Shown here one piece after another: positions 22,349 through 38,285 of a DNA stretch of 55,073 nucleotides; positions within the stretch are counted from its first letter, which is position 1, and the number at the start of each line of letters is the position of its first letter. The notes beneath the pieces were generated by a model that searched no databases, was not told the origin of the DNA, and saw only the letters and a program-made list of their open reading frames with translations. The DNA is from Eubacterium sp. (lineage in GTDB: Bacteria > Bacillota > Clostridia > Lachnospirales > Lachnospiraceae). Made by a program: the position numbers and the translations under genes. Where the stretch lies: positions 1 through 55,073 of the forward strand of contig JAAVZE010000074.1 of assembly GCA_022791495.1 (NCBI GenBank). Direction: 5' to 3'.

Positions 22349-22532
22349 TTATTCATATATCCGAAGTGTATAGTATAAATTATATATCGGCAGAAATGGA
22401 AATATTATGAATATGGCAAGAAAGTTTTATTTTATTGAAAGTTTTGTAAAAAAAGAAAAATAAAGAAAATTGGTTTATAAACTTTATTTTATAAAGTTAC
22501 AAAAAGAATTTATTAAAAAAACAAAAAAGAAC

Positions 22533-22561
22533 TTGAAATGTCATAAAAAATATTGTATAAT
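22533..22561 (+). promoter_or_regulatory. gltB operon promoter
   Basis: TTGAAA (22533-22538), 17-bp spacer, TATAAT (22556-22561), near consensus in AT-rich DNA. The predicted start (~22567) falls immediately before the leader terminator. Nothing else was recognised in 22349-22532 apart from AT-rich sequence. Confidence 0.8.
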
Positions 22562-22565
22562 GCAT

Positions 22566-22625
22566 TCAGACAAAGGTGTCAGAGAAGAAATACATACCCA
22601 AAGTGTTTCTTTCTGGCACCTTTTT
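22566..22625 (+). promoter_or_regulatory. gltB leader attenuator: terminator overlapped by an ANTAR-like hexaloop hairpin
   Basis: Terminator: 22572-22593 pairs with 22603-22623 (about 20 bp, 9-nt loop), followed by T5. Alternative hairpin: 22566-22571 with 22578-22583 (one A-A mismatch) closing a six-base loop AAAGGT with A at position 1 and G at 4, the base pattern ANTAR proteins recognise. It uses the terminator's 5' arm, so the two exclude each other. Only one hexaloop is seen; known ANTAR targets have two. Confidence 0.6.
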
Positions 22626-22723
22626 GTTTCTATGGAGACAGAAAGAGTCAAAACAAATACGCATTTTTTCCAGGGTATGGTGATGTGGATCTTGTGTAGA
22701 TGCGTGAGAATGGAGGAATCAGT

Positions 22724-25700
22724 ATGAGTGGCCAATATGTAGAGGAGACAAAAAGAAAAGCCATTGGTATGTATGATCCAAGCTTTGAACATGATAACTG
22801 CGGGATTGGAGCAATCGTTAATATTAAAGGAAAGAAAACTCATGACACAGTAAAAAATGCATTGGAGATCGTGGCTCATTTAGAGCACAGAGCTGGTAAG
22901 GACGGGGAAGGAAAGACAGGAGACGGCGTTGGGATCCTGCTTCAGATCTCCCACAAGTTCTTTCAGAAGGTGGCGGCTGGTATGGGCATTGAGATCGGTG
23001 AAGAGAGAGAGTATGGTGTTGGTATGTTTTTCTTTCCTCAGGATGAGCTCAAACGCAGCCAGGCAAAGAAAATGTTTGAGACCATCGTGGATAAAGAGGG
23101 ACTGGAATTTCTGGGCTGGCGTGAGGTTCCCATCTCGCCCCGTATCCTGGGAAAAGCAGCGTTGGAGTGTATGCCGTATATCATGCAGTGTTTTATAAAA
23201 AAACCAGCAGAGATAGAAAAGGGGCTGGAGTTCGACCGAAAACTCTATATCGCCCGCCGGGTGTTTGAGCAGTCCAATGAAAATACCTATGTGGTATCTC
23301 TTTCCAGCCGCACCATTGTATATAAAGGAATGTTTCTGGTGGCACAGCTGAGGCAGTTTTTTGATGATCTGCAGGATCCGGACTACGAATCTGCCATCGC
23401 CATGGTTCACTCCCGTTTCAGCACCAATACCCAGCCGAGCTGGCAGCGCGCTCATCCGAACCGCTTCATCGTACACAATGGTGAGATCAATACCATCCGT
23501 GGAAATGCGGATAAAATGCTTGCCAGAGAAGAGACGATGGAATCGGATCATCTGACCGGAGAGCTTCATAAGGTGCTTCCGGTGGTAAATACCGAGGGGT
23601 CTGATTCAGCTATGCTGGACAATACGCTGGAATTTCTGGTGATGAGCGGCATGGAGCTTCCTCTTGCTGTCATGATCACGATACCGGAGCCCTGGGCAAA
23701 TAATCGATATATCAGTGATAAGAAAAAGGATTTTTACCAGTATTATGCCACGATGATGGAGCCCTGGGATGGGCCCGCCTCCATTCTGTTTTCCGACGGA
23801 GATATCATGGGAGCAGTGTTGGACCGCAATGGACTTCGCCCGTCCCGTTATTATATCACTGATGACGATCAGCTGATCCTATCCTCCGAGGTAGGAGTTA
23901 TGCCAATAAGTGAAGAACATGTGGTGAAAAAGGACCGGCTGCGTCCGGGAAAAATGCTTTTAGTGGACACGGTGAAAGGTGAGTTGATCGATGACGATGA
24001 ACTGAAAGAGACCTTTGCTTCAAAACAGCCTTACGGAGAGTGGCTGGATACCAATCTCGTATCTCTGAAAGATCTTCAGATTCCGAATAAACGGATCGAG
24101 ACTTACGATCCGGAGGAGAGCCTGCGGCTTCAAAAGGCATTTGGTTATACCTATGAAGAAGTAAAATCTGCTATCCTTCCCATGGCAAAAAATGGTTCTG
24201 AGCCCATCGCAGCGATGGGACATGACACACCGCTGGCGGCGCTGAGTGGTCAGCCCCAGCCTTTGTATAATTATTTTAAACAACGTTTTGCCCAGGTGAC
24301 CAATCCGCCTATCGATGCCATCCGGGAAGAGGTTGTGACCTCTACTACAGTATACATTGGGGATGCGGGAAATCTGCTGGAAGAGAAGGCAGAAAACTGC
24401 CATTCACTCAAGATTGACGATCCAATTCTTACAAATATCGACCTTCTTAAGATCAAGTCCATGCAGGTACCAGGTTTTAAAGTGGCGGTTATTCCCATCA
24501 CCTACTATAAAAATACTTCCCTGGAAAAGGCGATCCACCGCCTTTATCTGGAAGCAGACCGGGCATATAAGGATGGTGCTAATATCCTGATCCTATCCGA
24601 CCGGGGGGTGGATGAGAACCATGTGGCGATCCCGGCACTTCTGGCGGTATCTGCCATGCAGCAGCATCTGGTCAATACGAAGAAGCGCACCTCCCTTTCC
24701 ATGATCTTAGAGAGTGCGGAACCAAGAGAGGTGCATCATTTTGCGACGCTGCTTGGATTTGGTGCCACCGCCGTCAATCCTTACCTTGCTCTGGATACGA
24801 TCCGCGGTCTGATTGATAACCATGTGCTGGATAAGGATTATTATGTAGCAGTGAACGATTATAATTCTGCGGTTCTTCACGGAATTGTAAAGATTGCTTC
24901 CAAAATGGGTATTTCTACGATTCAGTCTTATCAGGGAGCCAAAATTTTTGAAGCGGTGGGATTGTCGAAAAAGCTGATCGATCCCTACTTTACCGGAACC
25001 GTTTCCAGAATCGGCGGACTGGATATCGAGGACATTCAGAACCAGGTCGAGATGCTTCATGATAAAGCATTTGATCCGCTGGAACTGGGTACAGATATCA
25101 CTCTTGACAGTATTGGAAACCACAAGAGCCGCAGCGGAAAAGAAGAGCACCTCTATAATCCAAAGACCATTCATCTTCTGCAGGAGGCGACAAGAACCGG
25201 TGACTATAAGAAATTCAAGGAGTACTCCCATGAGATCGACCGTGAAGACCTTTACGTGAACTTAAGAAGTCTCCTTGACTTTAACTTCCCGAAGAAGGGG
25301 ATCGCCCTTTCTAAAGTGGAGAGTGTGGAGGAGATCGTGAAACGCTTTAAGACCGGAGCGATGTCTTACGGCTCTATTTCCCAGGAGGCCCATGAGACCC
25401 TTGCTATCGCCATGAACCGGCTTCACGGAAAATCCAACAGCGGTGAGGGAGGAGAGAGCCTGGAACGCCTCACCGTGGGAAAAGACGGATTAAACCGCTG
25501 TTCTGCCATCAAGCAGGTGGCTTCAGGACGCTTTGGTGTGACCTCCAGATATCTGGTCAGCGCAAAGGAGATCCAGATCAAGATGGCGCAGGGGGCCAAG
25601 CCAGGAGAGGGTGGACATCTGCCGGGGAAAAAAGTGTATCCCTGGGTGGCAAAGACGAGACATTCCACACCGGGAGTATCTCTGATTTCTCCTCCGCCAC

Positions 25701-27286
25701 ATCATGATATTTATTCCATTGAAGATCTGGCACAGCTGATCTACGACCTGAAAAACTCCAACCGGGATGCGAGGATATCGGTGAAACTGGTCTCTGAAGC
25801 GGGGGTCGGAACCGTGGCAGCCGGTGTGGCGAAGGCAGGTGCAGGGGTGATACTGATCTCTGGCTATGACGGTGGTACCGGCGCGGCGCCGGGAAGCTCC
25901 ATTCACAATGCCGGGCTTCCCTGGGAGCTGGGACTGGCGGAGACCCATCAGACGCTTTTGATGAACGGTCTGCGGTCCAAAGTGGTGATTGAGACCGACG
26001 GGAAGCTGATGACCGGGCGTGATGTTATGATCGCCGCTCTTCTTGGGGCGGAGGAATTTGGATTTGCCACAGCACCTCTTGTGACCATGGGATGCGTTAT
26101 GATGAGGGTTTGCAACCTGGATACCTGTCCGGTAGGAGTGGCGACACAGAATCCGGAACTTCGCAAGAGGTTCAAGGGAAAACCGGAATACGTGGAGAAT
26201 TTTATGAGATTTATCGCGGAAGAAGTCCGGGAACTGATGGCGAAATTTGGCGTGACTACGCTGGATGAACTGGTGGGACGTTCCGATCTTCTGAGAGTGC
26301 GGGAAGATATTGATAATGAGAGAGCCGGCAAACTGGATCTCTCTGCGATCATAGAGAATCCCTTCGTGAAGGAGAAGAAGAGCAAGTTCAACAGCAGAGA
26401 TATCTATGACTTTAAGTTAAATAAAACAATAGATGAAAAGGTCTTTTTGAAAAAATTTGCGGAGAATCTTGAGACCGGAGAAAAGAAGACCATTACGGCG
26501 AAAGTGACCAATACCGACCGCTCCCTGGGAACGATCTTTGGATCCCAGATCACAAAGAAACTGGGAGATGATCTGGAAGAGGATACTTTTACGATAAAAT
26601 GTACTGGAAGCGGCGGGCAGAGCTTTGGTGCCTTTATCCCAAGGGGGCTGACCTTAGAGCTTAAAGGTGACAGCAATGACTACTTTGGCAAGGGACTTTC
26701 CGGAGGAAAACTCATCGTATACCCGCCGGAGAATATCCAGTATAAACCGGAGGATAACATCGTGATCGGTAATGTGGCGCTGTACGGCGCTACCAGCGGT
26801 ACCGCTTATATCAATGGTGTGGCAGGAGAGCGGTTCTGTGTAAGGAATTCTGGTGTTCACGCTGTTGTAGAAGGTGTGGGTGAGCACGGCTGCGAATACA
26901 TGACCGGTGGCTGTGTGGTGATCCTCGGTTCCACTGGAAAGAACTTTGCCGCCGGAATGAGCGGTGGTATCGCCTATGTTCTGGATGAGAACAGCGACTT
27001 GTATCTGAAACTGAATAAGGAACTGGTTTCCTCAGAAGCAGTGTCCAATAAATATGATGTCATGCAGCTTAAGGATATGATCACGGCGCATGTAGAGGCG
27101 ACGGGTTCAGAAAAGGGTAAGGAGATTCTTGAGAACTTCAAGGAGATTCTACCGAAGTTCAAGAAGATCATACCTCATGATTACAAGAACATGCTGCAGA
27201 AGATTGCCATTATGGAAGAGAAAGGGCTGAGCAATGAGCAGGCCCAGATCGAGGCATTCTATGAGACCCAGAAGGAAATTTCCTGA
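22724..27286 (+). CDS. gltB: Glutamate synthase, large subunit
   Basis: 1520 residues from the ATG at 22724, with GGAGG eight bases upstream; an ATG at 22700 lacks one. It converts 2-oxoglutarate plus glutamine into two glutamates. The class-II glutamine amidotransferase starts at C26 (DNCGIGAIVN), which becomes the N-terminal nucleophile after removal of a 25-residue propeptide. The central and FMN-binding synthase domains follow (KPGEGGHLPGKKV, SGYDGGTGAAPGSS). The 3Fe-4S cysteines lie in GCVMMRVCNLDTCPVGVATQ. The C-terminal beta-helix GXGXG domain begins near residue 1265. All key residues appear intact. Transcription is probably limited by the leader attenuator. Confidence 0.97.
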   Translation: MSGQYVEETKRKAIGMYDPSFEHDNCGIGAIVNIKGKKTHDTVKNALEIVAHLEHRAGKDGEGKTGDGVGILLQISHKFFQKVAAGMGIEIGEEREYGVGMFFFPQDELKRSQAKKMFETIVDKEGLEFLGWREVPISPRILGKAALECMPYIMQCFIKKPAEIEKGLEFDRKLYIARRVFEQSNENTYVVSLSSRTIVYKGMFLVAQLRQFFDDLQDPDYESAIAMVHSRFSTNTQPSWQRAHPNRFIVHNGEINTIRGNADKMLAREETMESDHLTGELHKVLPVVNTEGSDSAMLDNTLEFLVMSGMELPLAVMITIPEPWANNRYISDKKKDFYQYYATMMEPWDGPASILFSDGDIMGAVLDRNGLRPSRYYITDDDQLILSSEVGVMPISEEHVVKKDRLRPGKMLLVDTVKGELIDDDELKETFASKQPYGEWLDTNLVSLKDLQIPNKRIETYDPEESLRLQKAFGYTYEEVKSAILPMAKNGSEPIAAMGHDTPLAALSGQPQPLYNYFKQRFAQVTNPPIDAIREEVVTSTTVYIGDAGNLLEEKAENCHSLKIDDPILTNIDLLKIKSMQVPGFKVAVIPITYYKNTSLEKAIHRLYLEADRAYKDGANILILSDRGVDENHVAIPALLAVSAMQQHLVNTKKRTSLSMILESAEPREVHHFATLLGFGATAVNPYLALDTIRGLIDNHVLDKDYYVAVNDYNSAVLHGIVKIASKMGISTIQSYQGAKIFEAVGLSKKLIDPYFTGTVSRIGGLDIEDIQNQVEMLHDKAFDPLELGTDITLDSIGNHKSRSGKEEHLYNPKTIHLLQEATRTGDYKKFKEYSHEIDREDLYVNLRSLLDFNFPKKGIALSKVESVEEIVKRFKTGAMSYGSISQEAHETLAIAMNRLHGKSNSGEGGESLERLTVGKDGLNRCSAIKQVASGRFGVTSRYLVSAKEIQIKMAQGAKPGEGGHLPGKKVYPWVAKTRHSTPGVSLISPPPHHDIYSIEDLAQLIYDLKNSNRDARISVKLVSEAGVGTVAAGVAKAGAGVILISGYDGGTGAAPGSSIHNAGLPWELGLAETHQTLLMNGLRSKVVIETDGKLMTGRDVMIAALLGAEEFGFATAPLVTMGCVMMRVCNLDTCPVGVATQNPELRKRFKGKPEYVENFMRFIAEEVRELMAKFGVTTLDELVGRSDLLRVREDIDNERAGKLDLSAIIENPFVKEKKSKFNSRDIYDFKLNKTIDEKVFLKKFAENLETGEKKTITAKVTNTDRSLGTIFGSQITKKLGDDLEEDTFTIKCTGSGGQSFGAFIPRGLTLELKGDSNDYFGKGLSGGKLIVYPPENIQYKPEDNIVIGNVALYGATSGTAYINGVAGERFCVRNSGVHAVVEGVGEHGCEYMTGGCVVILGSTGKNFAAGMSGGIAYVLDENSDLYLKLNKELVSSEAVSNKYDVMQLKDMITAHVEATGSEKGKEILENFKEILPKFKKIIPHDYKNMLQKIAIMEEKGLSNEQAQIEAFYETQKEIS

Positions 27287-27367
27287 CAGTGTCCCTGACA
27301 GAGGCTGGAGGAAAAGGCATTGCATTGCAGATATAAATAATTTATAATGAGGAAAGGGTTGAAAGCT

Positions 27368-28849
27368 ATGGGAAAACCAACCGGATTTTTAGAGTATGAC
27401 CGCAGGGGAAACACCGAGACCGGGCCCCTTGAACGGATTCAGAACTTCAATGAATTTCATGTAGCAATGGGAGAAGAGGAGCGGCGGTGTCAGGCAGCCA
27501 GATGCATGGACTGCGGCGTGCCTTTCTGCCAGTCAGGAATGATGATCGGCGGGATGGCTTCCGGGTGCCCGTTAAACAATATGTGCCCCGAATGGAATGA
27601 TCTGATTTATCTGGGGAATTACACAGAGGCACTAGGAAGGCTGCTAAAGACTAATAATTTTCCTGAGTTTACCTCCCGGGTCTGCCCGGCGCCCTGTGAG
27701 GCAGCATGTACCTGCGGACTGAACGATACTCCCGTCACCATTAAGGAAAATGAAAATGCCATCATTAAATACGGTTATGCCAATGACCTGATGAGGGCGA
27801 AGCCGCCTAAGGTGAGGACCGGAAAAAAAGTGGCAGTGGTGGGCTCCGGCCCCTCTGGCCTGGCAGCGGCAGACCAGTTAAATAAGCGGGGACACAATGT
27901 GACCGTGTTCGAGCGTTCTGACCGCCCCGGCGGGCTTCTGATGTACGGGATCCCCAATATGAAGCTGGAAAAGACCGTGATCGAAGGCCGGGTTAAGATC
28001 ATGGAAGAAGAGGGAGTAGAATTTCGCACGGGAGTTAATGTAGGAGTTGACGTGAAGGCAGGAGAGCTTCTGAAGGATTATGACAGGGTGATCCTCACCT
28101 GCGGTTCATCGAAGCCCAGAGACATCAAAGCACCGGGTAGAGAAGCAGCGGGAATATTTTTCGCGGTGGATTATCTCACAAGGGTGACAAAACATGTGAT
28201 GGATCCAGAGTATAAAGATGTGATCGATGCCAAAGGAAAAAATGTTCTGGTGATCGGCGGCGGAGATACGGGAAATGACTGTGTGGGATCTTCCATCCGA
28301 CAGGGAGCAAAAAGTGTGGTTCAGCTGGAGATGATGCCAAAACCTCCGGAAGAGCGTGCCGACAATAACCCCTGGCCGGAGTGGCCCAAGGTATTGAAGA
28401 CCGACTATGGCCAGCAGGAAGCCATCGCTTTATTCGGCAGCGATCCGCGGATCTATGAGACCACGGTAAAAGAATTTATCAAAGATGAAAAGGGCTGTCT
28501 GACTAAGGTGAAGGCGGTGAAGCTGGCGTGGATCAGAGATGAAGAGACAGGACGCATGAATATGAGTGAGATACCAGGCAGTGAATTTATTCTGGATGTG
28601 GATCTCGTGTTTATCGCCGCCGGATTTCTGGGAACCCAGGAATATATCGCCGAGGATTTTGGCCTGAAACTGACAGAGCGGGCCAATGTGTTTACCAAAC
28701 CAGGTAAGTACAAGACAAATGTAGAACGCGTATTTGCCGCTGGCGATATGCACCGGGGACAGTCTCTGGTGGTCTGGGCCATCCGGGAAGGGCGCGAGGT
28801 GGCGAGAGAAGTAGATGAGGATCTGATGGGATACTCGAACTTAAATTAA
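27368..28849 (+). CDS. gltD: Glutamate synthase, small subunit
   Basis: 493 residues from the ATG at 27368. It transfers electrons from NAD(P)H through FAD and two 4Fe-4S clusters to GltB. Seen: cysteine clusters CMDCGVPFC, GCPLNNMCPEW and CPAPCEAACTCG; FAD motif VVGSGPSGLAAADQL with PGGLLMYGIPNMKLEK; NAD(P) motif VIGGGDTGNDCVG; C-terminal VFAAGDMHRGQSLVVWAIREGR. It lies 81 bp downstream of gltB in the same unit and 73 bp before the GS-like gene. Confidence 0.97.
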   Translation: MGKPTGFLEYDRRGNTETGPLERIQNFNEFHVAMGEEERRCQAARCMDCGVPFCQSGMMIGGMASGCPLNNMCPEWNDLIYLGNYTEALGRLLKTNNFPEFTSRVCPAPCEAACTCGLNDTPVTIKENENAIIKYGYANDLMRAKPPKVRTGKKVAVVGSGPSGLAAADQLNKRGHNVTVFERSDRPGGLLMYGIPNMKLEKTVIEGRVKIMEEEGVEFRTGVNVGVDVKAGELLKDYDRVILTCGSSKPRDIKAPGREAAGIFFAVDYLTRVTKHVMDPEYKDVIDAKGKNVLVIGGGDTGNDCVGSSIRQGAKSVVQLEMMPKPPEERADNNPWPEWPKVLKTDYGQQEAIALFGSDPRIYETTVKEFIKDEKGCLTKVKAVKLAWIRDEETGRMNMSEIPGSEFILDVDLVFIAAGFLGTQEYIAEDFGLKLTERANVFTKPGKYKTNVERVFAAGDMHRGQSLVVWAIREGREVAREVDEDLMGYSNLN

Positions 28850-28922
28850 ATGTAAATCAAATGTAACTTATGCGAAATGGATTGGGGAAGAAAATCTTGT
28901 ATTGTTTGTTAGGAGGAGAAAA

Positions 28923-30236
28923 ATGGGAAATTATACCAAACAGGACATTATACGGTTAGTTGAAGAGGAAGATGTGGGATTTATCCGTCTGCAGTTTGTG
29001 GACAGTTTTGGCGGGTTAAAAAATGTGGCGATGACCAGCGATCATCTCGACCAGATCCTGAATAACCGCTGTATGTTTGACGGCGCCGCCATCCAGGGGT
29101 ATGATACGAAAGAATTGTCAGAATTTATCCTGGCTCCGGATCTGGATACATTTACCATTTTTCCCTGGCGGCCCCAGAGAGGAAGGGTGGCAAGATTTAT
29201 CTGTGATGTGCTCAATCCTGACGGTACACCCTATGAGGCAGATCCGAGATATATTTTAAAAAAAGTAGCAGCAGAGGCAGAGCGAGAGGGATTTTCTTTC
29301 CATGTGGGGCCGGAAAGCCAGTTTTTCCTCTTTGATACCGATGAGAACGGACAGCCTACGACGAATTCCAGGGAAAAAGGCGGATTTTTTGATATTGGAC
29401 CACTGGATTCCGGGGAAAATGCAAGACGGGACATGATACTTTCCCTGGAAGAGATGGGCTTTGTCATGGAGTCTTCCTATCATTCCAACGAGGTGGCGCA
29501 GCACTGCATCGATTTTATGTGTGACGAAGGACTGCGCACTGCGGACAATATCATGACCTTTAAGCTGACGGTCCGCACGGTGGCGAAGCGGCATGGTCTG
29601 CATGCTACTTTTATGCCAAAACCGCGGTATGGATTAAAGGGATCTGCGATGATGCTTAACATGTTTTTGAGCAAAGATGGAGATAATATATTTGCCGACG
29701 AGAGTGCGGCGGACGGCATGAGCAAAAGAGCATACCATTTTATGGCGGGGATCATTCGCCATATCAAGGGGCTGACCTTGATCAATAATCCTATCATAAA
29801 TTCCTATAAACGGCTGGTACCGGGCTACAACGCACCAGTGGAGATCACCTGGTCACGTACCAGCAGAACCCCTCTGATCCGCATCACCAATGTGGGAGTG
29901 ATCGGGCCAAGAGTGGTGCTGCGGAGCCCGGATGGCGCCAGCAATCCTTACCTGGTTCTGGCGGGCTGTCTGGCTGCCGGTCTGGAGGGAATCCGGGAGA
30001 AGCTGGAGCCGCCGGTGAGCATGGATGATGTCATTGGGGAACAGGATCCCCGGTTTGATATTCTGCCGAGATCGCTGCGGGAGGCGATCCATGCTTTTGA
30101 AGAAGATACATTTTTGCAGAATGTGTTCGGAAAAACCCTCTCCGAGATCATTATCAATGAAAAGAAAGAAGAATGGGAGGAGTTTTCCCGACAAGTGACA
30201 GCCTGGGAGGTGGAAAAGTATCTCGACCGCGTCTAG
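28923..30236 (+). CDS. Glutamine synthetase-like protein lacking the catalytic residues (probable pseudo-enzyme)
   Basis: 437 residues from the ATG at 28923 (AGGAGGAG upstream). It aligns without gaps to bacterial GSI-alpha over its length (YIRLQF-type start; ATFMPKP; NSYKRLVPGY; NPYLVLA). Against B. subtilis GlnA, recalled from memory, most metal and catalytic residues are changed. GPEPEFF is GPESQFF (E to Q133; E131 kept). HHEVAPGQHEIDF is YHSNEVAQHCIDF (E to S188, E to C195). GSGMH is GSAMM (H to M244). The flap Glu in GYEAP is N303. The Glu in RVEVRS is V332. FDGSSI is FDGAAI. Such a protein should not make glutamine but could still bind ligands. It sits between gltD and an ANTAR regulator, so a sensor role is my inference. 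Automatic tools would call it glnA. Confidence 0.85.
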   Translation: MGNYTKQDIIRLVEEEDVGFIRLQFVDSFGGLKNVAMTSDHLDQILNNRCMFDGAAIQGYDTKELSEFILAPDLDTFTIFPWRPQRGRVARFICDVLNPDGTPYEADPRYILKKVAAEAEREGFSFHVGPESQFFLFDTDENGQPTTNSREKGGFFDIGPLDSGENARRDMILSLEEMGFVMESSYHSNEVAQHCIDFMCDEGLRTADNIMTFKLTVRTVAKRHGLHATFMPKPRYGLKGSAMMLNMFLSKDGDNIFADESAADGMSKRAYHFMAGIIRHIKGLTLINNPIINSYKRLVPGYNAPVEITWSRTSRTPLIRITNVGVIGPRVVLRSPDGASNPYLVLAGCLAAGLEGIREKLEPPVSMDDVIGEQDPRFDILPRSLREAIHAFEEDTFLQNVFGKTLSEIIINEKKEEWEEFSRQVTAWEVEKYLDRV

Positions 30237-30420
30237 TACAATGAATATTAAGTAACTGACATATTCACTTGTCTAATTATTCAGCTACTGCGTCAGAAAA
30301 TCTAGCTAGACCATTGTTTTGTATGGTCTTTGCCACACGCTACACCGTCGATTTTCTTCCTTGTATCTGAATTAATTATCCTACGTGAATATATCAAAGA
30401 CTTAATTTTCATTGTACTAG
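30233..30420. mobile_element. MITE-like 188-bp inverted-repeat element
   Basis: The ends are inverted copies starting CTAGTACAATGAA. The first 36 bases of each arm match at 31 positions, similarity continues for about 70 bases, and the centre folds as AGACCAT-n8-ATGGTCT (near 30307-30328). The left end contains the TAG stop of the GS-like gene. CTAG/TA at both ends may be the target duplication. No coding capacity. CTAGTACAA recurs just outside the right end (30417-30425), perhaps a second truncated copy. As RNA it would form one long hairpin ahead of the ANTAR gene; no T-run follows. Confidence 0.7.
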
Positions 30421-30454
30421 TACAACTTAGTGTAATAGGAGGTGAACGTCTGCC

Positions 30455-30997
30455 ATGCGGATCCTTGTTGCGTTTCCTAATCTGGAAGATGCAAAAAAAT
30501 TGAAAAATGTTTTGAACCGCGGCGGTTTTGATGATATACTAGCCAGCAATAATGCGTCTCAGGTGATCAGTGTGGCAAATGATTCCGATGGAGGTATTGT
30601 GATCAGTGGTTATAAACTCCCGGATATGCACTACAGTGAACTATTTGGCTATCTGCCCAGAGAATTTTCCATGCTTCTGGTGGCAAGCCCTGCCAGGCTG
30701 GAGGACTGCTACAGCCAGGAGATCGTATGCCTGTCTATGCCGGTTCATTCCCGGGAACTGATTAATACCGTACATATGATGACCATGGATCTTGCCAGAG
30801 AATTGAAGCGGCGTAAGAAAAAACTTCCGAAAAGGCGGACGGCAGAGGAACAAAAGACCATTGATGCGGCGAAGGCTCTTCTGATGGAACGCAATCAGAT
30901 GACAGAAGTGGATGCGCATAAATATATGCAGAAACTCAGCATGGACAGCGGGAACAATCTGGTGGAAACGGCGGAAATGATCCTGGCATTTGAATAA
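30455..30997 (+). CDS. ANTAR-domain antitermination regulator with degenerate receiver (NitR-like)
   Basis: 180 residues; ATG at 30455 behind AGGAGGTGA. The C-terminal ~55 residues match ANTAR RNA-binding domains (IDAAKALLMERNQMTEVDAH, then YMQKLSMDSGNNLVETAEMIL). The N-terminal ~115 residues look like a response-regulator receiver without its chemistry: the acidic pair is replaced (LVAFPNLEDA) and the phosphoacceptor position is Gly in VISGYKLPD. A helical linker joins them. ANTAR proteins bind paired hexaloop hairpins in leaders and prevent termination. Clostridial NitR, encoded beside glnA, acts on nitrogen genes this way. Here its natural target is the gltB leader; control by the adjacent GS-like protein is an inference. 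Confidence 0.88.
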   Translation: MRILVAFPNLEDAKKLKNVLNRGGFDDILASNNASQVISVANDSDGGIVISGYKLPDMHYSELFGYLPREFSMLLVASPARLEDCYSQEIVCLSMPVHSRELINTVHMMTMDLARELKRRKKKLPKRRTAEEQKTIDAAKALLMERNQMTEVDAHKYMQKLSMDSGNNLVETAEMILAFE

Positions 30998-31014
30998 TGG
31001 AATGGAGGCAATAT

Positions 31015-32118
31015 ATGAAAGCTTATTTGATTCTGGAAGATGGAACCGTATTTACCGGAAAAAGTATCGGGAGTACAAGGGAAGTGATCAGTGAGATCGT
31101 ATTTAACACTTCCATGACCGGTTATCTGGAGGTGCTGACGGATCCCAGTTATGCGGGACAGGCGGTGGCAATGACCTATCCTCTTATAGGAAATTACGGT
31201 ATATGCCGGAGAGATATGGAGTCAAAGAGATCTAGTGTGGATGGCTTTATTGTCCGTGAATTGTCCAGGCTCAGCAGCAATTTCCGGGACGAGCAGAGCA
31301 TCCAGGAGTTTCTTGTGGAGCAGGATATTCCAGGAATTGAAGGCATCGATACCCGTGCCCTCACCAAGATCCTGAGGGAAAAGGGAACGATGAACGGCAT
31401 GATCACCACCAACGCCGCCTATGATCTGGATGCCGTCACCAGCCAGTTAAAACAATATAGTGTCCTTGGCGTCGTTGACAGGGTGACAACAAAAAAAATT
31501 GTATCCTATCAACCGGGGGATTTCGATACAGATAGCAGCATTCCGATCACAAAGAAGGTTGCTATTCTTGACGTGGGGACAAAATTTAATATTGCCAGAT
31601 GTCTGCTGAAACGTGGATGTGAGGTGACGGTCTATCCTGCGCGGACGAAGGCGGAGGATATTCTGGCGGGGAATCCTGATGGGATTATGATCACCAATGG
31701 CCCGGGGGATCCAAAGGACTGCGGGGAAGTGATCGAGAATCTGAAAAACCTGTATGCCTCAGATATACCGATCTTTGCTATTTGTCTTGGCCATCAGCTG
31801 ATGGCCCTTGCTAAGGGGGCGGATACAGAGAAGATGAAATATGGACACAGGGGTGCCAATCACCCGGTGAAGGATCTGGAGACAGGGAGAGTTTATATCT
31901 CATCCCAGAACCACGGGTATGTTGTAAAAGAAGATACCATCCCAGAGGGCGTGGCGGAGACAGCTTTTATCAATGTAAACGACGGTACCGTGGAGGGACT
32001 GAGGTATTTAGGAAAAAATATTTTTACGGTGCAGTTTCACCCGGAGGCGTGTGCCGGACCAAAAGATTCCGAAATATTGTTTGAGCGGTTTATGAACATG
32101 ATGAAGGAGGAAGCGTGA
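31015..32118 (+). CDS. carA: Carbamoyl-phosphate synthase, small (glutaminase) subunit
   Basis: 367 residues from the ATG at 31015, with GGAGG seven bases upstream; the ATG at 30997 is too early. It hydrolyses glutamine and channels ammonia to CarB for carbamoyl phosphate, used in arginine and pyrimidine synthesis. The class-I amidotransferase triad is visible: Cys in FAICLGHQLMALA, His and Glu in VQFHPEACAGP. It begins 17 bp after the ANTAR gene, so carAB is probably co-transcribed with the nitrogen unit. No pyr or ArgR site was seen directly ahead. Confidence 0.97.
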   Translation: MKAYLILEDGTVFTGKSIGSTREVISEIVFNTSMTGYLEVLTDPSYAGQAVAMTYPLIGNYGICRRDMESKRSSVDGFIVRELSRLSSNFRDEQSIQEFLVEQDIPGIEGIDTRALTKILREKGTMNGMITTNAAYDLDAVTSQLKQYSVLGVVDRVTTKKIVSYQPGDFDTDSSIPITKKVAILDVGTKFNIARCLLKRGCEVTVYPARTKAEDILAGNPDGIMITNGPGDPKDCGEVIENLKNLYASDIPIFAICLGHQLMALAKGADTEKMKYGHRGANHPVKDLETGRVYISSQNHGYVVKEDTIPEGVAETAFINVNDGTVEGLRYLGKNIFTVQFHPEACAGPKDSEILFERFMNMMKEEA

Positions 32119-32119
32119 T

Positions 32120-35100
32120 ATGCCTAAGATAGAAGGAATACAAAAGGTTTTGGTGATCGGCTCCGGACCGATCGTCATCGGTCAGGCAGCAGAGTTTGAT
32201 TATGCGGGAACCCAGGCATGCCGTTCCCTGAAAGAAGAAGGGATGGAGGTTGTTCTGATTAACTCAAATCCCGCTACCATCATGACGGATAAGGATATCG
32301 CGGACAAGGTTTATATCGAGCCGCTGACGGTGGATGTAGTAAAGAATCTGATCCAGAAGGAAAAGCCGGACAGCGTCCTGCCTACACTGGGGGGGCAGGC
32401 AGCATTGAATATCGCCATGGAGCTGGAGGAATGTGGATTTCTGGAAGAGCAGAAGGTGCGATTGATCGGAACTACTTCCCTAACGATAAAAAAAGCCGAG
32501 GACCGTCTGGAATTTAAACAGACGATGGAAAAGATCGGCGAGCCCATCGCTGCCAGTGAAGTGGTGGAGACCGTGGAAGACGCGGTGGCATTTACAAATA
32601 CCATCGGCTATCCGGTGGTGATCCGTCCCGCATATACCCTGGGTGGCAGCGGAGGAGGTATCGCTGGCACTGAGGAAGAGCTGAGGGAGATCTGCGCTAA
32701 TGGCCTTCGTCTTTCCCGGGTGGGACAGTGCCTTATCGAGCGCTGTATCGCTGGCTGGAAAGAGATCGAGTATGAGGTGATGCGGGATGCCGGCGGCAAC
32801 TGCATCACGGTCTGTAATATGGAAAATCTCGATCCTGTGGGCGTCCATACCGGAGATAGTATCGTGGTGGCGCCATCCCAGACTCTGTCAGATAAAGAAT
32901 ATCAGATGCTCCGCTCATCGGCGCTAAATATCATCACCGAGCTGAATATTACCGGAGGATGCAACGTGCAGTTTGCCCTCCATCCGGAATCCTTCGAGTA
33001 CTGTGTCATCGAGGTAAATCCGAGAGTCAGCCGTTCCTCCGCCCTCGCCTCAAAAGCTACAGGATATCCCATCGCCAAGGTGGCAGCGAAGATTGCCCTG
33101 GGCTATACTTTGGATGAGATCCCCAATGCCATCACCGGCAGGACCTTTGCCAGCTTTGAGCCGGCACTGGATTATTGTGTAGTGAAGATTCCAAGATTAC
33201 CTTTTGATAAATTTATCAAGGCGAAGAGAACTTTGACTACCCAGATGAAGGCCACGGGAGAGGTCATGAGCATCTGTACTAATTTTGAAGGGGCTTTGAT
33301 GAAGGCGCTGCGTTCCCTGGAACAGCATATTGACAGCCTGGATATCGGAAGATATACAGACCGCTCCAAAGAGGAGCTGCTAGAGCGTGTCCGTATCGTG
33401 GATGACCGGAGGATCTATATTATAGCGGAACTGATCCGAAAGGGAGCGACATACGATGAGATTCATGAGATTACAAAGATCGATCGTTGGTTTATCGACA
33501 AGATAGCGATCCTGGTAGAGATGGAGCAGCGTCTTAAGACGGAGTCGCTGACGCCGGAACTTCTTGCAGAGGCAAAACGGATCGAGTTCCCTGATAAGGT
33601 CATCGCCGGTTATGCCGGAATGACGGAGAGGGAAGTCCATGACCTGCGTATTGCCAACGGTATTACCGCCTCCTTTAAGATGGTAGATACCTGTGCGGCG
33701 GAATTTGAGGCGGCGACACCCTATTATTACAGCTGCTTTGGCAGTGAGTGTGAGGCGGATGCGGTTAAGACAAAGAAAAAAGTGATAGTGCTTGGATCCG
33801 GCCCCATCCGTATCGGTCAGGGTATCGAATTTGATTTTTGTTCGGTGCACAGTGCCTGGTCGTTAGAACAGAGCGGTTATGAGACCATAATCGTAAATAA
33901 CAATCCAGAGACCGTAAGTACGGATTTTGATGTAGCAAATAAGCTGTACTTTGAGCCGCTCACGCCGGAAGATGTGGAAAATATTGTGGATCTGGAAAAA
34001 CCCGACGGAGCTGTCGTACAGTTTGGCGGACAGACCGCCATCAAACTCACCCAGGCATTGATGGAGATGGGGGTTCCGATCTTTGGAACCAGTGCAGAAA
34101 ATGTGGATGCCGCAGAGGACAGAGAGCTGTTTGATAAAATTCTGGAAGAGTGTGGGATTCCGAGGCCAAAGGGGCATACCGTGTTTACCACCGAAGAGGC
34201 TTTGGAGGCGGCAAATGAGCTGGGATATCCGGTACTGGTGCGCCCCTCTTATGTGCTGGGCGGCCAGGGGATGCAGATCGCCATCAATGACGATGACATC
34301 ATAGAATTTATGTCCATCATCAACCGCCATGTACAGGAACACCCGATCCTTGTGGATAAGTACCTGATGGGAAAAGAAGTAGAAGTGGATGCTGTGTGTG
34401 ACGGTGACGATATTCTCATACCTGGTATTATGGAACACATCGAACGCGCCGGAATTCATTCTGGAGACAGCATTTCCGTCTATCCTGCACAGAGCATCAA
34501 ACCGGAGGTGCAGGAGGTGCTGGTGGATTATACGAGAAAGCTCGCCAGATCTCTCCATGTCATCGGACTGATCAACATACAGTTTATCGTGTACCATGAG
34601 GACGTCTATGTAATCGAGGTCAATCCCCGTTCCTCCCGGACAGTGCCGTATATCAGTAAGGTGACAGGGATCCCTATTGTGAAACTGGCTTCCCAGGTGA
34701 TTCTGGGAGCGAAGATCAGAGAACTTGGATATGAGACAGGACTGGCGAGAAAGGCAGATTATACCGCCATCAAGATGCCGGTATTTTCCTTTGAAAAACT
34801 CCGTGGCGCCGAGATCAGCCTTGGACCGGAGATGAAATCCACCGGAGAGTGCCTCGGTATCGCCAGGACCTTCAATGAGGCATTGTCAAAAGCGTTTCTT
34901 GGCGCTGGTATCAATCTGCCTCAGCACAAAAAAATGATCCTTACAGTGCGTACCCAGGAACAGGACGACGCAGTTCCCATCGCCAGACGTTTTCTTGCCC
35001 TGGGATATGAGATCTACGCCACCCTGGGAACGAAAAAAGCCCTTGCCAGAGCGGGCGTCGAGGTGATCGGAATCAATAAGATCGAGCAGGAAGCGCCGAC

Positions 35101-35338
35101 GCTGATGGATCTGTTACTGGAACACGAGATTGATCTGGTGATTGATATTCCCAAGCAGGGAGAACATTCCCACGATGGTTTTCTGATCCGGCGGACTTCC
35201 ATCGAGACAGGTGTCACCTGCCTCACCTCCCTGGATACGGCGAATGCCCTGTTGACCTCTCTGGAAAATGTGGATAAGACCCAGATGTCGCTGATCGATA
35301 TTGCGGCCATTGAGGGGCGTCAGGGTACAGCACACTAG
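32120..35338 (+). CDS. carB: Carbamoyl-phosphate synthase, large subunit
   Basis: 1072 residues, normal length, one base after the carA stop. Two homologous ATP-grasp halves are clear: [20 protein letters not shown] with [19 protein letters not shown], and [20 protein letters not shown] with [16 protein letters not shown]. The first makes carboxyphosphate and the second phosphorylates carbamate. The C-terminal ~140 residues form the MGS-like allosteric domain (usual effectors UMP and ornithine). The stop codon overlaps that of the convergent trkA/ktrA gene in CTAG (35335-35338), and no terminator separates them. Confidence 0.97.
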   Translation: [1072 protein letters not shown]

Positions 35339-35988
35339 TTAGTTTTTGCCGACAGCTTAAAAACATCGGAGGATTTTCCGATCACAACGATATGGTCATC
35401 CTTCTGGAAGGTATAATCCCCTTTGGGCATGGGATCGATGGACTGTCCGTTCTTGATGGCAATGATATTGACATTGTATTCCTGGCGGACGTTGATATCA
35501 ATGATGGTTTTGCCGATCCAGTCCGGGATGATCGGAATTTCAAAAATCGAACAATCTGAGGTCAGTTCGATGTAATCGAATATATTTGTGGCATTGTAGC
35601 GGACCGCAAGTTTTTCAGCAATTTCTTTTTCCGGATAAAACACTTCGTCAGCCCCTATTTTTTTCAAAAATTCGGCCTGGCGGAGCCGTTTTGCCTTTGA
35701 AACCACAAAGGTGGCTCCCAGTTCTTTCAAAATAGAGGTGATCTCCAGGGAGGCATAAAAATCTTCTCCGATGGCTACAAAACAGTAGTCAAAATTGTTC
35801 ACCCCGATGCTTTTCAGAACAGCGGGATTGGTGCAGTCCCCGGCGATAGCATCGCCAAATATGGTGGAGAGTTCCTGGATCTTTTCCTCGTCTTTGTCTA
35901 TGATCATGACATCATTTCCTAACTCCTGCATTTTTGCAGCGAGGCAGCGGCCCAGCATCCCCATTCCAATGACTAGTATTGATTTCAT
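35335..35988 (-). CDS. Potassium-uptake RCK subunit (KtrA/TrkA type)
   Basis: 217 residues from the ATG at 35988 (AAGGAAA upstream on the minus strand); a longer open frame is spurious. The RCK_N Rossmann domain starts ILVIGMGMLGRCLA with acidic D at the end of strand 2 (VMIIDKDEEK), and GDCTNP and AIGEDFYASLE follow. An RCK_C domain occupies ~135-217. It gates the membrane subunit encoded upstream in response to nucleotides (ATP/ADP, NADH or cyclic-di-AMP in relatives). The glycine motif is GMGMLG where GLGRFG is commoner. Confidence 0.92.
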   Translation of the reverse strand: MKSILVIGMGMLGRCLAAKMQELGNDVMIIDKDEEKIQELSTIFGDAIAGDCTNPAVLKSIGVNNFDYCFVAIGEDFYASLEITSILKELGATFVVSKAKRLRQAEFLKKIGADEVFYPEKEIAEKLAVRYNATNIFDYIELTSDCSIFEIPIIPDWIGKTIIDINVRQEYNVNIIAIKNGQSIDPMPKGDYTFQKDDHIVVIGKSSDVFKLSAKTN

Positions 35989-38067: not shown

Positions 38068-38084
38068 TCTATTTACTGTGAAAG

Positions 38085-38285
38085 TTCCGGACAGCGACCA
38101 TGTGGATGAGCGTGTTTACACGCACAGCCATATGGTCATTGGACGGGCAGGACGGTATGAGTACGCAGGGCGACAGCACGAAAGTACGAATGCCGGCAGC
38201 GATTGCGGGAGTGCAGTATGCACGAAGCAATCGACTTTTATAACGATGGTGCCGCCGAAGGCGGTATGTCGGGTTTATTGTAAAA
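38085..38285. repeat. Intergenic repeat cluster with GAA-loop hairpins
   Basis: Contains GCGTGT-TT-ACACGC near 38109, two AGTACG words (38160 and 38186 region) matching the argC-argJ spacer, and CCGCC-GAA-GGCGG near 38254-38266. A relative of the last hairpin lies between the two ATP-grasp genes (46064-46090). No coding content is credible. Confidence 0.5.

Follow-up and report, generated by a model that had tools for sequence, protein, structure and literature searches.

The window analysed here, a 55,073-nt stretch from a Lachnospiraceae genome that is 83% complete, carries on its plus strand the gene order gltB-gltD-GS-ANTAR-carA-carB, in which a type I glutamine synthetase (GSI) gene stands between glutamate synthase genes and a gene for an ANTAR-domain protein. 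The operon and its leader comprise the following features:

22533..22561, plus strand: sigma-70 type promoter, TTGAAA-17-TATAAT (11/12 match, the best of 17 in 22400-35400, a region in which the scan overall gave no more matches than in shuffles)
22569..22580, plus strand: P1 hairpin GAC[AAAGGT]GTC with an A1/G4 hexaloop, at the predicted 5′ end of the transcript
22572..22623, plus strand: intrinsic terminator hairpin and U tract (fold −26.3 kcal/mol, z −5.6; not listed by a stricter consensus terminator scan)
22724..27286, plus strand: gltB, glutamate synthase large subunit (Pfam GATase_2, Glu_syn_central, Glu_synthase, GXGXG; probable start at 22724, longest open reading frame from 22700)
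27347..28849, plus strand: gltD, glutamate synthase small subunit (Pfam Fer4_20, Pyr_redox_2; named from its place and domains)
28923..30236, plus strand: dead glutamine synthetase (pseudo-GSI), 437 aa, from ATG at 28923 to TAG at 30236
30455..30997, plus strand: ANTAR protein with a pseudo-receiver (Pfam ANTAR, 58.7 bits)
30997..32118, plus strand: carA, carbamoyl-phosphate synthase small subunit (Pfam CPSase_sm_chain, GATase)
32120..35338, plus strand: carB, carbamoyl-phosphate synthase large subunit (Pfam CPSase_L domains, MGS)

The GS gene is flanked by gltD and the ANTAR gene, with no adjacent gene for a DNA-binding regulator of the kind that characterizes the circuits of feedback-inhibited GS with GlnR or TnrA. 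Inside the operon, between the GS stop codon and the ANTAR gene, lies a 184-bp MITE-like insert (window 30237-30420) that has inverted end repeats (16/17 bases), CTAG at each end and partial matches elsewhere in the genome, and that is absent from the close relatives L004-L008. Downstream of the operon, a Clostridiales-1 RNA (RF01699) matches window 38079-38240 at 102.7 bits. At L066 / L019, the carA gene of the dead-GS operon is divided into two neighbouring open frames.

The GS frame contains no internal stop across its 437 aa and aligns end to end with Bacillus subtilis GSI; its best solved relatives are GSI chains such as 4s0r, 7tfc and 4lnf (E about 1e-138). Pfam recognizes the GS N- and C-domains at full length (PF03951, 75.9 bits; PF00120, 344.2 bits), and the NCBIfam GlnA equivalog TIGR00653 scores 411.9 bits, below its cut-off of 429.15. 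Comparison with solved GSI bears out the original prediction that this gene, in the glnA position, has lost its metal and catalytic residues: in B. subtilis numbering, E134, E189, E196, H245 and E333 are replaced by Q133, S188, C195, M244 and V332, and the flap Glu304 by N303, leaving E132 (window E131) as the sole survivor of the seven metal and flap residues. The FDGSSI motif reads FDGAAI, as had also been claimed along with the intact frame. The loss was, on the other hand, described as near-total, which is right for six of these seven residues and too strong for the active site as a whole, in which the catalytic-loop Asp D53 and G240, R297, R315, R330 and R334 are retained. Nor is the alignment free of gaps, as had been stated: one residue is absent near position 125, and the Y-loop stretch q355-382 is six residues short, at 28 aa against 34 aa in 57 of 58 comparison GSs (the remaining comparison sequence also has 28 aa, and the 35 dead sequences assembled below have 20-31 aa). 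The proviso that one loop, YHSNEVA, could be shifted with the other losses left standing proved sound, because the YHSNE loop is a clade-wide replacement, [YF]H[SA]xExAQH standing for HHEVAPAQH in most dead sequences, so that realigning it would not restore the ligands elsewhere. Judged by these residues, the window protein would be dead as a synthetase, a conclusion that the alignment supports.

Several GS-fold enzymes act on other substrates, and the retention of some catalytic Arg and Asp residues would suit an enzyme with another reaction or substrate rather than a pseudoenzyme. We consider this very improbable: the window protein has jointly lost ligands at each of the two metal sites, the Ser that contacts adenine and part of the Y-loop, and the place of H245 is taken by Phe, Met, Ile or Ser across the genus. 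The objection is weaker for two relatives, L075 (Anaeromicropila populeti) and L076, in which only E189 and E304 are lost and five of the seven residues are present.

The dead form is widespread in the genus. Among 99 genomes searched, 39 of them in the genus of the window (its own genome counted), it occurs in 24 of the 39, one copy being cut by a contig end, and a 25th genome holds an edge fragment alone. Named genomes were also scanned, using 17 aligned dead proteins as the query; the best 80 of 430 loci, which were retained, include 22 loci of the genus type (L053-L074), largely from the same genomes as the genus survey, as well as GSs eroded in other ways (L075, L076, L079-L081, L093, L128, L100 and L107); the 58 comparison GSs have all seven residues in 51 cases and one change in 7. 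In a tree of 106 sequences, built by a quick method with the catalytic columns masked, the 33 dead sequences (31 loci, the window and L047) form one clade with an SH-aLRT of 100, nested among the comparison GSs, under a long-branch warning for L047 with L100 and L107. All 33 lack E189 and E304, and the fate of E132, E134, E196, H245 and E333 varies by sub-lineage. A strict motif survey found matches in 10 of 397 genomes of the family, a lower bound given how strict the pattern is; eight were real GSs and two were not, they fell into seven genus codes, and two further members of the dead set that this survey yielded, L153 and L157, bring it to 35 sequences overall.

These sequences are under purifying selection. 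NG86 dN/dS lies between 0.02 and 0.06 in 14 of 15 close pairs; the fifteenth value, 0.123, is probably inflated because the open frame used for it includes bases that precede the start. Across the genus, the median is 0.062 (60 of 253 pairs), compared with 0.112 for 156 pairs of comparison GSs, pairs outside dS 0.1-2.5 being left out. Of the 156 columns fixed in comparison GSs, 121 are retained in at least 90% of dead GSs, and none of the 23 full-length dead sequences of the genus contains a stop. The orthologues might instead have varied at random with frequent frameshifts; the shared absence of E189 and E304 from the whole clade, together with the low dN/dS, argues that the residues were lost beyond chance, and the selection on a non-catalytic protein that had been proposed is supported by the median dN/dS and the intact frames. 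Catalytic-residue loss by itself would fit a pseudogene in early decay, but this reading, hardly credible given the dN/dS and frames, was rejected; the shared replacement motif and the operon also speak against it.

Erosion of ANTAR-linked GSs is seen elsewhere in the sample. A second eroded clade adjoining ANTAR genes (L033-L042, L046, L048, L050) has the gene order gltB-gltD-carA-carB-GS-ANTAR in most members; D53 is replaced by Asn in 11 of 12, E304 by Thr, Ser or Lys, and E132 often by Lys or Met. L045 (genome G048) is separately eroded (E132N, E196A, H245R, E304F) and keeps its 2-oxoglutarate-site residues (described below), and four eroded GSs from two other families of the class (L246, L245, L263 and L265) are followed by an ANTAR gene and have the site complete. 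In three further ANTAR-linked GSs (L098, L109, L115), E196 is replaced by Arg and the other six residues are intact, which may represent an early stage on the way to catalytic loss.

If the protein makes no glutamine, another synthetase presumably does. Each of the 24 dead-GS genomes of the genus matches PF00120 a second time, in a frame of 489-792 aa that we take as GSIII-like, and in 23 of the 24 this is the only match besides the dead GS; a mixed ring with an active GSI is thus unlikely. The exception, G033, has a further GSI-like copy that is itself eroded (L047), and the A. populeti genome has a third PF00120 match. A check of the window's genome for a second, intact GS, which had been suggested, finds a copy cut by a contig edge that is type III by its N- and C-terminal Pfam domains and in which the motifs AEQE, NEVAPAQHE, GSGKHN, NDHRLGANEAPP and FEFR, whose catalytic roles we presume, look intact. 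Since a GSIII-like match is common to both groups, occurring in 10 of 10 dead-GS genomes (L074 is probably G005 again) and 31 of 31 others, GSIII permits the catalytic loss and does not explain it. P-II proteins were matched in 14 of the 16 genus genomes searched (of 24), each time in a frame of 585-649 aa whose length points to a probable fusion to an ammonium transporter, with a further weak match in two; free P-II may be absent from the dead-GS genus. This gap is not general, as the genomes of A. populeti and L093 have several P-II matches in short frames. In the window's own genome, the sole P-II match (G000:C85:7534-7848) falls within a 649-aa frame, a probable transporter fusion.

The constant companion of the dead GS is the ANTAR protein. 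Its ANTAR domain scores 58.7 bits against a cut-off of 27.3, and an ANTAR gene lies downstream of the GS in all 80 of the named loci retained (the best 80 of 430). The receiver domain of the window protein has G52 in the place of the phospho-acceptor Asp and M95 in the place of the conserved Lys; Tyr157, the presumed equivalent of EutV Tyr164, is retained. The phospho-acceptor place is Gly in 33 of 33 partners of dead GSs, and all 57 ANTAR proteins paired with comparison GSs have Gly, Ala, Ser or Thr there; 13 of 68 ANTAR partners in the wider sample described below retain the Asp. Because the receiver lacks its phospho-acceptor and the GS is a constant neighbour, the GS is the likely input to the ANTAR protein.

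A probable target of the ANTAR protein lies in the operon leader. The A1/G4 pair is described as the signature of ANTAR hexaloops, a single hexaloop being the minimal target (PMC8934654), and no second A1/G4 hexaloop, as in the classical dual type, is visible by eye in the leaders inspected. The P1 loop and 3′ arm lie within the terminator hairpin, so that P1 and terminator, sharing these bases, are mutually exclusive. P1-type hairpins precede 19 of 20 gltB genes scanned, loci with less than 150 bases upstream being left out, L100 and L107 being counted despite a weak T run, and the one miss (L058) being a contig that starts inside gltB. Four loci (L062, L068, L072 and L073) have two candidate hairpins each, of which the one beside the promoter and terminator was chosen; by eye, relatives have a similar promoter box before the hairpin. 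With the T-run rule, hairpins were found before 19 of 58 other GS genes (L069 and L070 being genus contigs without a gltB start). Outside the genus, a hexaloop with the 4-pair rule lies upstream of 21 of 57 GS genes compared with 0 of 57 for a reversed loop, although L108 and L110, which are counted in the 21, look like chance finds. Of the dead GSs from other genera, only L075, L100 and L107 showed the hexaloop in the scan, and it was not found upstream of L076, L079-L081, L093 or L128.

The stem itself pairs in 91% of cells, with none of 500 shuffles as high; as the sequences were preselected for at least three stem pairs (31 of 38 matches used, near-identical ones left out), this covariation is not independent evidence, and real support for the hairpin comes from the reversed-loop control and the fixed position. 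A search of the window's own genome with the P1 pattern as a regulon probe showed no enrichment (19 matches, 36 for the reversed control), and by eye promoter, hairpin and terminator occur together only at the gltB leader (L148). An Rfam search of the operon leader gave no match. On contig C10 of the same genome (L135, 3339-3350, minus strand), a GAC[AAAGGA]GTC hairpin stands behind a promoter-like box with a weak U tract, before a carbon-nitrogen hydrolase gene (Pfam CN_hydrolase) whose product has an N-terminus resembling a signal peptide; it is a possible second ANTAR target.

What signal would the dead GS read? In the GSI-alpha enzymes of Bacilli, E304 holds glutamine, R62 braces E304 and GlnR is described as reading the glutamine-bound state (PMC9249791). 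The original prediction argued from bacilli, in which active GS doubles as a nitrogen sensor that binds regulators, that a dead GS could be kept as a dedicated sensor. The sensor idea itself gains from the purifying selection and the constant regulator gene, but the bacillus analogy is not supported in the form given, and the neighbour is an RNA-binding ANTAR protein rather than a partner of the GlnR or TnrA type. In the window, the R62-E304 lock is T62 and N303, and both residues are replaced in 35 of 35 dead sequences, by Asn, Asp, Arg or Leu at E304 and by Thr, Asp, Gly or Ser at R62, on which grounds we rejected glutamine-lock sensing as in Bacilli as the main model. The old active site could nevertheless sense glutamine (or glutamate) without metal or ATP and pass its state to the ANTAR protein. 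The carboxylate-binding R297 and G240 are present in all 33 dead sequences of the clade, R315 and R334 in 32 of 33 each, and E134, which is Gln in the window protein, in 23 of 33, and the Asn that occupies the flap position in 29 of 33 could touch the amide; because G240, R297, R315 and R334 are retained, a ligand in the amino-acid pocket is possible, and there is the precedent that GlnR reads the glutamine-bound enzyme. With both known lock residues gone from every dead sequence, we nonetheless regard this as rather unlikely.

A different site is intact. In the GS of Methanothermococcus thermolithotrophicus, 2-oxoglutarate is bound between subunits via Phe18, Arg20, Arg88, Arg174, Arg175 and Ser191, and would be shut out by a bulky side chain at position 34; bacterial GS structures have Tyr and Glu at this site and no Arg88 (PMC10799026). 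The same residue set is described for Methanosarcina mazei GlnA1 (PMC11957540). The site maps to F20, R22, R83, R168, R169, S185 and A36 of the window GS, with seven of seven present. This mapping has two supports: nine M. mazei landmarks, each displaced by the same offset of 4, and an alignment that places a relative, L175, on chains 8ufj and 8s59 (species not named in the alignment output), which scored like the M. mazei entry 8tfb. All seven residues are complete in 35 of 35 dead sequences and in 57-58 of 58 comparison sequences; the second eroded clade has the six ligands in all 12 sequences and carries Ser in the place of Ala36, and positions 20, 36 and 83 of B. subtilis GS are Tyr, Glu and Thr. 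M. mazei S38, a water contact, and D170, the partner of R87, correspond to Asn34 and Asn166 in all sequences here. Across all 47 eroded sequences, 6 of the 7 site columns are unchanged, compared with 54 of 135 columns fixed in comparison GSs (P 0.016); only 2 of 10 catalytic columns are unchanged.

The wider sample comprised 138 GSI sequences from genomes at the order, class and phylum levels, taken as best loci and hand-picked stretches rather than as every match, of which four were dropped for short flanks or gaps, leaving 134. ANTAR-linked GSs have lost metal residues in 5 of 67 cases (0 of 67 other GSs; P 0.058), E304 in 21 of 67 (0 of 67) and R62 in 42 of 67 (2 of 67), and retain a complete 2-oxoglutarate site in 57 of 67 (33 of 67). 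The site is complete in 5 of 5 sequences with metal-residue loss and in 20 of 21 with E304 loss; L179, which is ANTAR-linked and has a broken site, is a clear exception. The sequences are related to each other, and in an independent-pairs test that controls for kinship, with few informative pairs, no trait was significant, the R62 loss that bears on glutamine sensing included. On a tree of 149 sequences, the metal-residue state changes at least seven times. Several findings count against the 2-oxoglutarate reading: M. mazei S38 and D170 are both Asn here, 10 of 67 ANTAR-linked GSs lack part of the site, and B. subtilis GS signals without an archaeal-type site. Retention could also reflect ancestry or ring structure, since comparison GSs have the site too, as do 33 of the 67 GSs that are not ANTAR-linked.

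The active-site cavity could, alternatively, be a docking socket for the ANTAR protein, the GS acting as a ligand-free scaffold that sequesters it, with level or assembly rather than a metabolite setting the output. GlnR C-tails are described as docking in the GS active-site cavity (PMC9249791), and 20 columns distinguish the dead from the comparison GSs, of which at least 11 (q55, 64, 67, 153, 186, 188, 191, 242, 244, 303 and 332, by hand tally) lie in active-site loops or at most three residues from a metal ligand or the flap Glu. Such a scaffold would leave the seven fixed 2-oxoglutarate-site residues, which catalysis no longer needs, without a reason to persist, and we think it improbable.

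We favour a model, to which we give a probability of about 50%, in which the pseudo-GS reads 2-oxoglutarate and controls an ANTAR antiterminator of its own operon. The catalytic loss, purifying selection, constant partner, dead receiver, leader anatomy and 2-oxoglutarate-site residues on which it builds are apparent in the sequences themselves. A type I GS would no longer make glutamine and would persist as the sensor in a sensor/ANTAR pair, presumably forming a GS-type ring and binding 2-oxoglutarate at the inter-subunit site. The ligand state would decide whether the ANTAR protein is held or freed through a putative contact with the pseudo-GS. Once freed, the ANTAR protein would bind the A1/G4 hexaloop at the transcript's 5′ end and stabilize P1, which would prevent the overlapping terminator and let polymerase read into gltBD-GS-ANTAR-carAB. 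The probable sign is antitermination at high 2-oxoglutarate, that is, under nitrogen shortage. Glutamine is a substrate of both glutamate synthase and carbamoyl-phosphate synthase, and 2-oxoglutarate is a substrate of glutamate synthase, so the operon fits the proposed signal.

Several known systems resemble parts of this model. The vertebrate lens protein lengsin is likewise a GS fold without GS activity; unlike the pseudo-GS here, it is eukaryotic and has no tie to nitrogen regulation. AmiC-AmiR and NasS-NasT are comparable sensor/ANTAR pairs; the fold of NasS differs from that of GS, the sensor here being a GS-fold pseudoenzyme. The GS of the NitR system of Clostridium saccharobutylicum is taken as catalytic, and we found no report of a dead GS in that system. 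NitR is likewise an ANTAR antiterminator for GS/GOGAT genes, described as inducing them on nitrogen limitation (PMC6316151), which sets the sign expected of the pseudo-GS/ANTAR switch. NasS-NasT is described as a complex of a nitrate sensor and an ANTAR antiterminator that acts on leader RNA (PMC3795266); we favour NasS-NasT-like logic, in which the sensor holds the ANTAR protein and the ligand frees it. Feedback-inhibited GSI-alpha with GlnR or TnrA shares the GS fold and the principle of a GS informing a gene regulator, but is a working enzyme in which glutamine is read via E304 and R62 (PMC9249791), whereas here catalytic and lock residues are replaced; GlnR and TnrA are DNA-binding, whereas the neighbour here is an RNA-binding ANTAR protein with the leader attenuator as its likely target. 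The archaeal GSI-alpha enzymes of M. thermolithotrophicus and M. mazei (GlnA1) have the six 2-oxoglutarate contacts and a small residue at 36, as here; they are active enzymes switched on by 2-oxoglutarate, whereas here the switch residues alone are left, with Asn for M. mazei S38 and D170. Among the literature matches listed, from open-licence sources, none described a dead GS with an ANTAR partner in a bacterium.

More broadly, and more tentatively, a class of bacterial pseudo-GSs may have arisen on several occasions within the Clostridia, giving up catalysis and retaining an ancient enzyme's 2-oxoglutarate switch as a dedicated nitrogen receptor that drives antitermination of glutamate synthase and carbamoyl-phosphate synthase genes. 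To our knowledge, nitrogen sensing in the Lachnospiraceae, an abundant gut family, is poorly mapped. If the model is right, receptor, signal, RNA switch and regulon would be named within one operon, and the conversion of an enzyme into a receptor could be seen cleanly, with living intermediates (A. populeti). The model also predicts that catalytic ANTAR-paired GSs of the same family use the same switch, and this would account for the input to an ANTAR protein with a non-phosphorylatable receiver.
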